64,000 bases of DNA from an uncultured Bacteroidota bacterium (lineage in GTDB: Bacteria; Bacteroidota; Bacteroidia; Flavobacteriales; Flavobacteriaceae): the NCBI GenBank assembly GCA_902515405.1, contig CABXUS010000005.1, positions 1-64,000 of the forward strand, given 5' to 3'. The notes beneath the pieces are model-generated. The model saw only the letters and a program-made list of their open reading frames with translations. It ran no database searches and was not told the DNA's origin. Position numbers and translations under genes: made by a program. Shown here one piece after another: positions 31,707-38,209 of the stretch; positions within the stretch are counted from its first letter, which is position 1; each line of letters starts with the position of its first letter.

Positions 31707-33029
31707 TTATTTACCAATTCTATAATATTCTAAACCCTTATTATTTAAATCGTAAGCTATATATTGATTACGTCCATCAAAAATAACCGGAGTTTTCAAT
31801 TGTGTTTTTATCTCTTCAAAATCAGGCGATCGAAACTCTTTCCATTCGGTGAGCAGTACTAGTGCATCTGAATCTTTTAAAACATCATATTTCGAGGCCA
31901 CATACGTTATGTTTTTAATTCCTTTTAGGTAATGCTCTTTAGCTTCATCAATCGCCTTCGGATCATAGGTTTTTATTTTGGCACCTCGTTTCACTAGTTC
32001 TTTTATTACATAGATAGCTGGTGCTTCTCTCATATCATCAGTTCCTGGCTTGAATGCCAAGCCCCAAATACCAAAAGTAAAACCCTTTAGGTCTTCTCCA
32101 AATCGATTAATAATTTTTTGGGCAACTACAAATTTTTGGGCATCGTTTACTTCTTCAACTGCTATGATTAATTTTGCATGATAATCGTGTTCTTTAGCAA
32201 TTTTTGTTAATGCTTTTACATCCTTTGGAAAACAAGAACCTCCATAGCCTGCACCAGGATAAATGAAACTATAACCAATACGCTGGTCCGAACCAATACC
32301 GATTCGTACTAGATTGGCATCAGCTCCTACCTTTTCACAGATATTGGCAATTTCGTTTATAAATGATATTTTAGTTGCTAGCATTGCATTGGCAGCATAC
32401 TTGGTCATCTCAGCAGAACGAATATCCATGATAATAAAGCGGTCATGAGATCTAAAAAAGGGTGAGTATAATTCTTTCATTTTTTTAGATGCTGTCTCAG
32501 AATCTACTCCAATAACCACACGATCTGGCTTCATGAAATCTGCAATAGCAGCTCCCTCTTTTAAAAATTCAGGATTAGAAACCACATCAAACTCTAAATC
32601 AGAATTTCGTATATCTAACTCTTTTTGAATGGTCGCCTTTACCTTATCTGCAGTCCCAATAGGAACGGTTGACTTGTCAACAACAATCAATCTTTTTTGC
32701 ATCGACTGACCTATCGATTTTGCTACAGCTAATACATATTGTAGGTCTGCAGACCCATCATTTCCCATGGGAGTTCCAACGGCTATAAATGCTATTTCAG
32801 AATTGTGCAGAGCTTTATCTAATTCTGTTGTAAAAAACAAGTTTTTATTTTCTACATTTTTTAAAACCATAGTCTCTAAACCTGGTTCAAATATTGAAAT
32901 AATTCCTTGGTTTAGTTTTTCAATTTTAACGGGGTCTATATCAACACAAGTAACTCTGTTTCCCATTTCTGCAAAACAGGTTCCTGAAACGAGCCCAACA
33001 TATCCAGATCCTACAACAGTAATATTCAT
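31707..33029 (-). CDS. ugd: UDP-glucose 6-dehydrogenase
   Basis: MNITVVGSGYVGLVSGTCFAEMGN, FIYPGAGYGGSCFPKDVKAL, FGIWGLAFKPGTDDMREAPA. Confidence 0.96.
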   Translation of the reverse strand: MNITVVGSGYVGLVSGTCFAEMGNRVTCVDIDPVKIEKLNQGIISIFEPGLETMVLKNVENKNLFFTTELDKALHNSEIAFIAVGTPMGNDGSADLQYVLAVAKSIGQSMQKRLIVVDKSTVPIGTADKVKATIQKELDIRNSDLEFDVVSNPEFLKEGAAIADFMKPDRVVIGVDSETASKKMKELYSPFFRSHDRFIIMDIRSAEMTKYAANAMLATKISFINEIANICEKVGADANLVRIGIGSDQRIGYSFIYPGAGYGGSCFPKDVKALTKIAKEHDYHAKLIIAVEEVNDAQKFVVAQKIINRFGEDLKGFTFGIWGLAFKPGTDDMREAPAIYVIKELVKRGAKIKTYDPKAIDEAKEHYLKGIKNITYVASKYDVLKDSDALVLLTEWKEFRSPDFEEIKTQLKTPVIFDGRNQYIAYDLNNKGLEYYRIGK

Positions 33030-33898
33030 TTATTTTTTTCTTTATTACCGACGGTAGTCATGTTAATTTTTTTTTTATAACTCACAGATCTTCCCTCTTT
33101 TAACTCCCAATCTTTCTCTGGTCTTACTTTTAGGTTCGTAGCCCAGCCACCCGCAACGGAATTTAATTCAATATTGTTTTTTTTAGAAAAAGATAAAAGT
33201 GCATTGACATCTTTAGGAAAACATGTTCCTCCATATCCAAGCTTTCCGTCATGCCCAGGAACATTTAAATGACTGTCACCTATTCTTCCATCAGAGACAA
33301 AACCTCTTAGCGCATCTTCCCAATTCGCTCCAATTTTATCACATAAGAGTCTAAACTCATTCATGATACTCACTTTTGTCGCAAAAAAAGTGTTGTTCAT
33401 GTATTTAGTAAGCTCAGCTGTTTTTGAATCCGTTTGAATTATATTTTTAATTTTAAATCTTTGATTAAATAAGGTTTTTGCTTTTTCAGTTAATTTGGAC
33501 TGCCCACCTAAAATAATTCTGGATTGAGTAAGCATGTCTAACTTCGCCGTTCTTTCAGTTAAAAATTCTGGAGAAAAAATAATTTTAAAGTTTGAGTATT
33601 TTTTAGATAATTTTTCTGTAGTTCCAGGTAAAACAGTAGATTTTAGTATATATACTGGCTTATTAGTTGCATTCTCAAAAGCATTTTCAACATATGACAA
33701 ATCTTGAGAACCATCCTTAAACATAGGGGTTGGGACGCAAATAAATACAAAATTACAATTATGTACAGACTGTAAATCATCCACAGTCTTCAAAGGATTT
33801 GTATCGTATACATAAATATGGGAAACTGAGGAAAAAGCAAATGAAATAGCTTCACCCACGAAACCATTTCCAATAATACCTACTTTATATTTTTTCAT
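33026..33898 (-). CDS. Short UDP-glucose/GDP-mannose dehydrogenase family protein without the C-terminal domain
   Basis: KVGIIGNGFVGEAISFAF, DSHLNVPGHDGKLGYGGTCFPKDVNALL; 290 aa, ends after the central domain. Confidence 0.85.
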   Translation of the reverse strand: MKKYKVGIIGNGFVGEAISFAFSSVSHIYVYDTNPLKTVDDLQSVHNCNFVFICVPTPMFKDGSQDLSYVENAFENATNKPVYILKSTVLPGTTEKLSKKYSNFKIIFSPEFLTERTAKLDMLTQSRIILGGQSKLTEKAKTLFNQRFKIKNIIQTDSKTAELTKYMNNTFFATKVSIMNEFRLLCDKIGANWEDALRGFVSDGRIGDSHLNVPGHDGKLGYGGTCFPKDVNALLSFSKKNNIELNSVAGGWATNLKVRPEKDWELKEGRSVSYKKKINMTTVGNKEKNK

Positions 33899-34037
33899 TT
33901 AAATATCAATTAATCTTAGCTTATATAATGGATTCACAATTTTTTTAAAATATTTTTAAAAATAATTTAAGCTTCAAAAATAGTTAATGACTTTCGTTTT
34001 AAAAGCTTATTTGAAACAAAAAAATCAATTTTTTTCA

Positions 34038-35171
34038 TCATATATTTTTAAAAAAAGTTAAAACTTTTTCAACTATTTTAGTTTGGCTAGAATTTTCAAT
34101 CTCAGAGTGAATTGGTAGAGAAAAAACTGAATTACAAAGGCGCTCAATATTATCAATTTCAAAATTTAGTTCAACAAAGTTTGAAAAAGCTTCTTGTTTG
34201 TACAAAGGAACTGGATAGTATATCATTGCAGGTATTGCATTATTTGAAAGATAATCAATTATACTATTTCTCAATTTTTTTTCAATTTTTAAAGTATATT
34301 GATGAAAAACATGGTTTGAATTTGAAGACCTGTAAGGTGTTACTAATTCATTTATATTCTTAAATGAATCATCATATATATCAGCCATTTTTAATCTGTT
34401 TAAATTATATTGATCTAAATATTTCAGTTTAATATTCAAAATTGCTGCCTGGATTGAATCGAGTCTAGAATTACAACCCGTTAGTTTATGATAGTATTTT
34501 TTATTTTGACCATGATTTGCAATCATTTTCATTTTTAAAAAAAGTTCTTCATTATTTGTAAAAATTGCTCCTCCATCTCCATAGCATCCCAAATTTTTAG
34601 ATGGAAAGAAAGATGTAGTTCCTATATCACCAATAGTACCAGTTTTTTTTGTTTCACCATTAGAAAATTTATAATTACAACCAATAGCTTGAGCATTATC
34701 CTCAATTACAAACAAATTATATTTTTTAGCGAGAGTAATAATCTCCTCCATATCAGCTGATTGACCAAAAAGGTGAACAGGTACAATTGCTTTTGTCTTT
34801 GAATTAATTAATGGTTCAATGTGTTTAGCTTTTATATTAAAAGATTCATAATCTACATTTGCCATCACTGGTTTTAATCCTAAAAGAGCTATAACCTCTG
34901 CAGTTGCAACATAGGTAAATGAAGGACATATAACTTCATCTCCTGGCTCTAATTCACAGGCCATTAAAGCAATCTGCAACGCATCAGTTCCATTTCCACA
35001 AGGAATAACATGATTACATCCCATGTAATTTTTTAAATTTTCCTGAAATTCTTGAACTTTTGGACCATTAATAAATTTAGTAGATTGAATTGTCTGTAAT
35101 ACTTCATTGTCAATTTCATTTTTTATTTTTAGATATTGACTTTTTAAGTCAACCATTTGTATATCACTCAT
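34038..35171 (-). CDS. DegT/DnrJ/EryC1/StrS aminotransferase
   Basis: IPCGNGTDALQIAL, VIEDNAQAIGC, TTSFFPSKNLGCYGDGGAI with the PLP Lys intact. Confidence 0.92.
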   Translation of the reverse strand: MSDIQMVDLKSQYLKIKNEIDNEVLQTIQSTKFINGPKVQEFQENLKNYMGCNHVIPCGNGTDALQIALMACELEPGDEVICPSFTYVATAEVIALLGLKPVMANVDYESFNIKAKHIEPLINSKTKAIVPVHLFGQSADMEEIITLAKKYNLFVIEDNAQAIGCNYKFSNGETKKTGTIGDIGTTSFFPSKNLGCYGDGGAIFTNNEELFLKMKMIANHGQNKKYYHKLTGCNSRLDSIQAAILNIKLKYLDQYNLNRLKMADIYDDSFKNINELVTPYRSSNSNHVFHQYTLKIEKKLRNSIIDYLSNNAIPAMIYYPVPLYKQEAFSNFVELNFEIDNIERLCNSVFSLPIHSEIENSSQTKIVEKVLTFFKNI

Positions 35172-35173
35172 AA

Positions 35174-35382
35174 TTACAGTCTAGAGTTTAACTTATCTTT
35201 TTTGAAAAATACTTTTAAATCAAACACAACTAAGTTTTCGTTTTTTTCAAAGCTTTTAAATCAAGCTAACTAAATTTTAAATGTTTAACTGCCAAAATAA
35301 TCCCAGGTTTGTATTTTAAAAAATTACATTTTGTTGCTGCAGAGTAACCAACAAATCCTTGACCTACTATTACTGTATTCAT
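35174..35382 (-). pseudogene. Remnant of a WbpA/WbpO/TviB-type nucleotide-sugar dehydrogenase
   Basis: Minus strand encodes MNTVIVGQGFVGYSAATKCNFLKYKPGIILAVKHLKFS* and, in another frame, SFEKNENLVVFDLKVFFKKDKLNSRL*; these resemble the N- and C-terminal ends of that family. Confidence 0.75.
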
Positions 35383-35504
35383 TAATTAAATTTAATTATT
35401 CTTACGATTTTTTACTAATTCTTATGAGAAAAACATGACATTAATAAAAAGCTTCGCTAGATGAACCACAAAGATTCAATAAAATTATTTATAAAAAAAA
35501 TCAA

Positions 35505-36014
35505 TTAATTACTAAAAACTAATAATTTATCAATTTTTATTTTTGAGCTAGACGAAGATATAATAACAACTTTTTTATTTAACAAATTAGATAATCTAAT
35601 CTCCAAATCTGATATGTAATCAAGATTTAAATTATTTCCAGTAATTAAAACATCTATTTGATCGGTGTATATCCCATTTGCAAAATCACCAAGTAAAAAA
35701 ATTTCTCTAACTGAACCCATTCTTTCTAAAACTGTTGAAACCAAATCTTCTATACCTAAATATTTTTTTACAATATTTTGAAGATCGTAAAAAAGTGGAT
35801 GATTTTTATTTGCTTGATATACAACTTTGTTTTGAACAGTTTTTTTTATCAAAAAATTGGCTTTTGTTAAATTATTTAATTCCTTTCTAACTGAATTTGT
35901 TGACTCGGAAAATTCATCAGCCAGTTGATTTAAATATCCTGTATTAGCTATATTTACAAAAAACTTAATTAATAGCTTTTGTCTTGTTTGAGATTTAATT
36001 ATACTTTCAATCAT
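35505..36014 (-). CDS. Winged-helix regulator fused to a minimal nucleotidyltransferase-like domain
   Basis: N-terminal HTH (NQLADEFSESTNSVRKELNNLTKANFLIKKTVQNKVVYQAN) plus REIFLLGDFANGIYTDQIDVLITG. Divergent from the UXS gene. Confidence 0.72.
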   Translation of the reverse strand: MIESIIKSQTRQKLLIKFFVNIANTGYLNQLADEFSESTNSVRKELNNLTKANFLIKKTVQNKVVYQANKNHPLFYDLQNIVKKYLGIEDLVSTVLERMGSVREIFLLGDFANGIYTDQIDVLITGNNLNLDYISDLEIRLSNLLNKKVVIISSSSSKIKIDKLLVFSN

Positions 36015-36982: not shown

Positions 36983-38209
36983 TCAAAGTTTATTAATTTC
37001 AGTAAACAACCAATCCATCCGATTACTAATCCAATCTTCTAAATATGACTGTTCATCTTCAAAGGAGTTTCCAATAAAATAATTTGGCCAGATATATTTT
37101 CCTAAAAGATTCCAAACGGATTCGTTATTAATTCTTGATTGCTTAATCAGATTAGAATATCTCTCAACTTTTTCTAATAACATATATTTATTAATGTAAA
37201 AATAGTTATATCTTAATTTTACTTTGTCAATAAATTTTTCATCCTCAAAGAGTCTTTCAATCCATAAGCTATTTTTTACCCAGAAACCATCAATTTTTTC
37301 ATTATTGTTATAGTTTATGTTTCCAAAAGCAATATCAAAGTCCCACAAAGGACCCATCTTTAATTTTTCACCTGAAACATAGTTCATATAAACACTACTA
37401 AAAAAAATTGCATCATTATTTTTTGCAATTTCATTTATAATATACCAGTCAACAAAAGAATCAACATCTAAATATTTTGAGTATCCTAAAATGGGGTCTT
37501 TAAAATTATCACCATAAAGTATATTTTCTGTTTTATTTATATACGACTCTATCTCTTTAAGCTCATCAGACCCCCAAGCTAAGTCTGGGTCTTTTACTAC
37601 AAATAACAATCTTTTATTAGTCCAAAAAGCAATATCATCACTATCGATTCTATCGAGCTGGTCAACCTCGATTAGAAATCCTTCATCACCAATTTTTACT
37701 CGATTATCTTTTCCAGTTTCAACCTTTTCCATAAATTGATATAGACCTTTATCCTTACCATTAATTTTAACTTCTGCAAAATGAAATGCAGTTGTAAAAT
37801 CCAAAATACTCATGTAACCCAATTCACATGCAATTGCATTCCTAATCATAGTTTTATCTGAATAATTAGCCAGCATTAACCACTTTTTATCCTCAGGCAT
37901 GTCAAATAAACTATACTTTTCATCAAATTTAAATTGGTAGGATTTTTTTGGAAAATTCCATGTAGAATTTCCTCTTCCTCTAATTTTAATTGGAGATGAA
38001 AAACTCTCAAATTCATAATCTTTTGGAAAAAAATCAAAAGTCCCAGTAATATATTCATCTTTGGAAATTATATCTTGAAAGTCTTCGGTTTGGATATTTA
38101 TTTTAGGGAGTTCTTTTACAATTTGATTACAACAGTTTAATTCTTCAGCGTTACAACTTAATAAAATTGGTAATATTATATAAATAAATTTATGTTTCAT
38201 TTTTAACAA
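36983..38209 (-). CDS. CotH kinase family protein, predicted lipoprotein
   Basis: Lipobox-like ILLSCN; IKIRGRGNSTWNFPKKSYQFKF, DKTMIRNAIACEL, KGLYQFMEKV, GPLWDFDIAFGN. Confidence 0.9.
   Translation of the reverse strand: MLKMKHKFIYIILPILLSCNAEELNCCNQIVKELPKINIQTEDFQDIISKDEYITGTFDFFPKDYEFESFSSPIKIRGRGNSTWNFPKKSYQFKFDEKYSLFDMPEDKKWLMLANYSDKTMIRNAIACELGYMSILDFTTAFHFAEVKINGKDKGLYQFMEKVETGKDNRVKIGDEGFLIEVDQLDRIDSDDIAFWTNKRLLFVVKDPDLAWGSDELKEIESYINKTENILYGDNFKDPILGYSKYLDVDSFVDWYIINEIAKNNDAIFFSSVYMNYVSGEKLKMGPLWDFDIAFGNINYNNNEKIDGFWVKNSLWIERLFEDEKFIDKVKLRYNYFYINKYMLLEKVERYSNLIKQSRINNESVWNLLGKYIWPNYFIGNSFEDEQSYLEDWISNRMDWLFTEINKL

Follow-up and report, generated by a model that had tools for sequence, protein, structure and literature searches.

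A probable remnant of two adjacent nucleotide-sugar dehydrogenase genes in a surface-polysaccharide locus of a marine flavobacterium

A 209-base gap (positions 35174-35382, minus strand) in the surface-sugar gene cluster of a marine flavobacterium very probably holds the dead remains of two neighbouring genes in the same orientation, one of the ORF1 type, encoding a short dehydrogenase, and one of the TviB/WbpA-like ORF2 type; we put the probability of this reading at roughly 0.93. The gap lies within a stretch of 64,000 nucleotides, the window, which belongs to a genome assembly of 48 contigs that is 71.7% complete. Judged from alignment with an intact relative, the remnant joins the stubs of two genes and is not a single collapsed gene, with the apparent loss of two genes, and the event itself is one of ordinary gene loss and decay.

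On the minus strand, the gap reads MNTVIVGQGFVGYSAATKCNFLKYKPGIILAVKHLKFS from 35382 to 35266, a frame of 38 codons closed by an in-frame stop codon at 35266-35268. Past a change of frame, 35260-35174 reads FKSFEKNENLVVFDLKVFFKKDKLNSRL and a second stop, and the remnant ends 2 bp from the start of an aminotransferase gene (35171). A first-pass annotation of the DNA had described both frames and the 2-bp spacing, together with the GxGFVG start, stop and frame change, and each was confirmed. Pfam searches of the gap fragments returned zero matches, an uninformative result at lengths of 28-38 aa.

When the aminotransferase was used as a query against genome contigs, a single contig, L002 (NZZP01000033.1), matched at 85% identity, and all others matched at 76% or less. 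Synteny between the window and L002 spans several genes: a glycosyltransferase, a capsule-assembly-like gene, an SDR gene, the aminotransferase, and an HTH regulator (35505-36014, minus strand) that is 93% identical in L002 and anchors the comparison upstream of the gap. The order in L002 is HTH, ORF1, ORF2, aminotransferase and a WbpD-like hexapeptide protein. ORF1 (L002 5875-6699, 274 aa) contains only the N-terminal and central NSDH domains and would be a short nucleotide-sugar dehydrogenase without the UDP-binding C-terminal domain. ORF2 (L002 6702-7961, 419 aa), the intact dehydrogenase of about 400 aa that the first-pass annotation had expected upstream of the aminotransferase in related genomes, contains all three NSDH domains and matches TIGR03026 (nucleotide sugar dehydrogenase). 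Its best NCBIfam model is TviB (NF011729, E 8e-159), with a score of 529 bits that falls under the equivalog cut-off of 592, so ORF2 is called TviB-like only, with no exact substrate assigned. The intact arrangement was seen in this one relative; the contig is filed under a Gammaproteobacteria MAG despite its synteny with a flavobacterial locus, and is probably misbinned. A gene that we take to be CotH-like (36983-38209, minus strand) separates genes in the window that adjoin in L002, and is either a gain in the window's lineage or a loss in that of L002.

DNA alignment of the gap region with L002 resolved collinear blocks, the first of which consists of the regulator tail and the DNA that follows it. 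Within the gap, the remnant is composed of three collinear pieces on the minus strand. The 5' stub (35347-35382) retains the start codon and first 12 codons of the lost ORF1 (MNTVIVGQGFVG) and, together with the non-coding DNA upstream (35383-35437, within the 81% identical block q138-217), matches L002 at E 2e-16. The middle island (35304-35342), AATKCNFLKYKPG in the window and AAGTKWNFLKYKPG in L002, is about 40 bases long and covers about 13 codons of ORF2 (approximately codons 239-251; E 8e-7). The 3' stub (35174-35303) contains the last ~44 codons of ORF2 and, extended into the aminotransferase start, aligns with L002 at E 5e-46 and 81% DNA identity. With the intact dehydrogenase of L002 as query, a protein search over the whole genome also recovered 35177-35278 at E 5.3e-5 and 62% identity. 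In total, the window keeps ~57 of the 419 ORF2 codons.

Each piece was compared with its assigned source gene against 300 dinucleotide shuffles, and in all three cases the observed score exceeded every shuffle. The 5' stub with its upstream DNA scored 83 against ORF1 (shuffle maximum 35). Against ORF2, the score was 44 for the middle island (shuffle maximum 30) and 102 for the 3' piece (shuffle maximum 39). Two other sources for the 5' stub were rejected: ORF2 gave 23, a shuffle-level score, with the upstream DNA included, and the window's own short dehydrogenase (33026-33898) scored at or near shuffle level. By protein search, DNA alignment and shuffling, the match to dehydrogenase genes far exceeds chance. 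The shortness of the fragments and the lack of any Pfam match would suit a fortuitous resemblance in AT-rich intergenic DNA, but three pieces in collinear order, which individually outscore all 300 shuffles and sit within conserved synteny, refute that explanation, which has next to no probability left. The earlier proposal that the gap holds both ends of a nucleotide-sugar dehydrogenase was thus borne out by the protein search and the L002 alignment. Its single collapsed gene held up as a dehydrogenase remnant but not as one gene, since the N-terminal stub derives from a separate ORF1 that precedes ORF2 (83 versus 23). The middle island (E 8e-7, 0 of 300 shuffles) had been missed.

The L002 alignment and the reading frames likewise support an internal loss combined with a stop and a frameshift, as first proposed; the one large deletion then envisaged is instead two. 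Breakpoint arithmetic places junction 1 at 35343-35347, with a net loss relative to L002 of ~1502 bp that removed the greater part of ORF1 along with the first ~237 ORF2 codons and joined the two frames in frame. Junction 2 (35303-35305) is also in frame, at a shared GG, with a net loss of 375 bp (125 codons) that took the GGHC catalytic-cysteine region and the central and UDP-binding parts of ORF2; the middle island lies immediately ahead of where the missing catalytic GGHC motif would stand. The 3' stub carries a one-base frame change in a homopolymer around 35241-35247 and retains the original terminus, NSRL followed by a stop at 35174-35176. The disabling lesions present in the remnant are the loss of the GGHC motif, the stop and the frame change. 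Both deletions would keep the frame by chance about 1 time in 9, and an intermediate stage may have been under selection.

One open frame does run from the old ORF1 start through both junctions to the stop, and the fused 38 codons (35266-35382) might be taken for a new functional small ORF or a leader peptide controlling the aminotransferase. We consider this very improbable, as no conservation of the frame as a unit was found and its sequence consists of inherited pieces; a sigma-70 scan (Bacteroidota promoters lie outside its scope) gave no promoter- or terminator-like signal. Single-cell amplification or assembly could also have created the deletions, leaving both genes present in the living cell: the assembly is 72% complete in 48 contigs, single-cell genomes occur in the genus, as the AG- isolate names of L003 and L004 indicate, and junction 2 has the short shared sequence found in amplification chimeras. 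Such an artefact is nevertheless improbable, because it leaves the stop and frame change in the 3' piece unexplained and calls for two separate, precise events on the same strand at a distance of 40 bp.

The timing of the loss was approached through the distribution of differences from L002 over codon positions. The window's intact aminotransferase differs at 0.12, 0.07 and 0.33 of first, second and third positions, respectively. For the retained 3' part of ORF2 the corresponding counts are 7/44, 5/44 and 18/42; over 12 codons of the middle island they are 0, 1 and 6. Because the third-position bias persists in the dead pieces, most divergence from L002 would predate inactivation, and the decay is inferred, from few sites, to be recent compared with the split from L002. 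The lineage would then have dropped the dehydrogenase step recently, through short deletions in a variable polysaccharide locus, leaving the downstream aminotransferase intact.

That gene (34038-35171, minus strand, 377 aa) encodes a DegT/DnrJ/EryC1/StrS aminotransferase (Pfam PF01041, E 5.6e-109) that keeps the PLP lysine motif FFPSKNLG and belongs to the DegT/StrS fold family. It matches WbpE structures at E about 2e-88 and is about equally near in sequence to QdtB and an inositol transaminase; we call it WbpE/QdtB-like by resemblance. ORF2 would formerly have oxidised UDP-HexNAc (UDP-GlcNAc or similar) to a uronic acid, from which the neighbouring WbpE-like aminotransferase, acting with WbpB- and WbpD-like enzymes, could have produced a 2,3-diamino uronic acid. 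In the 71.7%-complete assembly, no other TviB-like dehydrogenase was found, nor were WbpB or WbpD homologues with specific queries (a general Gfo/Idh search being too broad to identify WbpB). The full set (WbpA-B-E-D) was thus not found, only the WbpE-like gene being intact, a result that the missing 28% of the genome could change. A WbpD-like remnant was also sought after the aminotransferase (33899-34037) and rejected, with a DNA score of 20 against a shuffle mean of 23; the opening sequence of this gap, ATGAAAAAAATTGATTTTTTTGTT (MKKIDFFV), bears a faint resemblance to MKNKDYFV, with which the L002 WbpD-like protein starts.

The first-pass annotation had suggested that the aminotransferase may now be orphaned, and the lack of detected TviB-like, WbpB and WbpD partners in the 72%-complete genome gives this partial support. 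Homologues with at least 73% identity occur in 7 of the 23 genomes searched in the genus, the window's own included, and two (G151 and G308) also have a TviB-like gene, but four congeners (G310, G312, G318 and G320; 73-76% identity), all incomplete assemblies, have the aminotransferase with no TviB-like dehydrogenase detected. The gene thus appears to be retained whether or not a dehydrogenase lies next to it, and its product may have a second substrate. WbpB- and WbpD-like genes were found in G318 and a WbpB-like gene in G151. The aminotransferase adjoins prs in most of these genomes and rfbABCD in several, and the latter proximity would fit, for example, a dTDP-3-keto-6-deoxyhexose. It is conceivable, though we hold it to be the less probable course, that the aminotransferase, kept without Wbp partners in the genus, now serves such another sugar and that the loss of the dehydrogenases marks a substrate switch, not orphaning.

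Other features of these loci were recorded in the genus. Short nucleotide-sugar dehydrogenases of 267-290 aa (33026-33898 on the minus strand, L002:5875-6699, L176:11440-12264 and others) combine NAD-binding and central domains with a catalytic-cysteine motif, GGTCFPKD or GGHCFPKD, but lack the UDP-binding C-terminal domain. They fall into two types that share about 40% identity, of which the window kept one and lost the other. The HTH protein matches no Pfam family above cut-off, with a weak HTH only; it occurs in 10 of the 23 genus genomes searched, often in polysaccharide loci (for instance L176:7832-8791, L177:4374-5325 and L183:8422-9392). Some of the HTH genes directly precede a gene for a protein with the sequence MNWYVLHTKPRHEKKVE that resembles a NusG/UpxY-type antiterminator.

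The analysis corrects the gap annotation. The lineage would have given up one sugar-making step that its nearest known relative still encodes. The locus clearly illustrates recent gene loss among the surface-polysaccharide genes of a marine flavobacterium with a small genome, and a relative still shows the ancestral arrangement; it cautions that context alone should not place a neighbouring aminotransferase in a uronic-acid pathway. Surface-polysaccharide loci often gain and lose sugar genes, so the wider importance is modest; a literature search on pseudogenes in such loci returned nothing specific.

Among known systems, the L002 ORF2 resembles the TviB/WbpO/WbpA-type UDP-HexNAc 6-dehydrogenases in its three NSDH domains and in having TviB as best model, whereas the window copy, with ~57 of 419 codons, is dead. 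The Wbp pathway (WbpA-B-E-D) is known from Pseudomonas aeruginosa O antigen and Porphyromonas gingivalis A-LPS (PMC4031482, PMC7468200), and the linking sugar on type IX secretion cargo in P. gingivalis is a product of this pathway (PMC7468200). The window's genome also encodes type IX secretion sorting domains, so a linking sugar of the Wbp type could have been put to use there; no tie between the lost gene and type IX secretion was seen in this analysis. Gene groupings that match this pathway recur: L002 carries consecutive WbpA-, WbpE- and WbpD-like genes, and two distant Bacteroidota (L031 and L064) group the same aminotransferase type with hexapeptide (WbpD-like), Gfo/Idh (WbpB-like) and TviB-like (WbpA-like) genes, the WbpD and WbpB names resting on resemblance to typed proteins; in the window's genome, by contrast, only the WbpE-like aminotransferase was found intact. 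A parallel in kind is P. gingivalis HG66, which carries a natural nonsense mutation in wbpB (PMC4031482). There a single mutation has a proven phenotype, whereas the window has two deletions and further lesions known from sequence; both are natural inactivations of a uronic-acid-pathway enzyme in a Bacteroidota surface polysaccharide.
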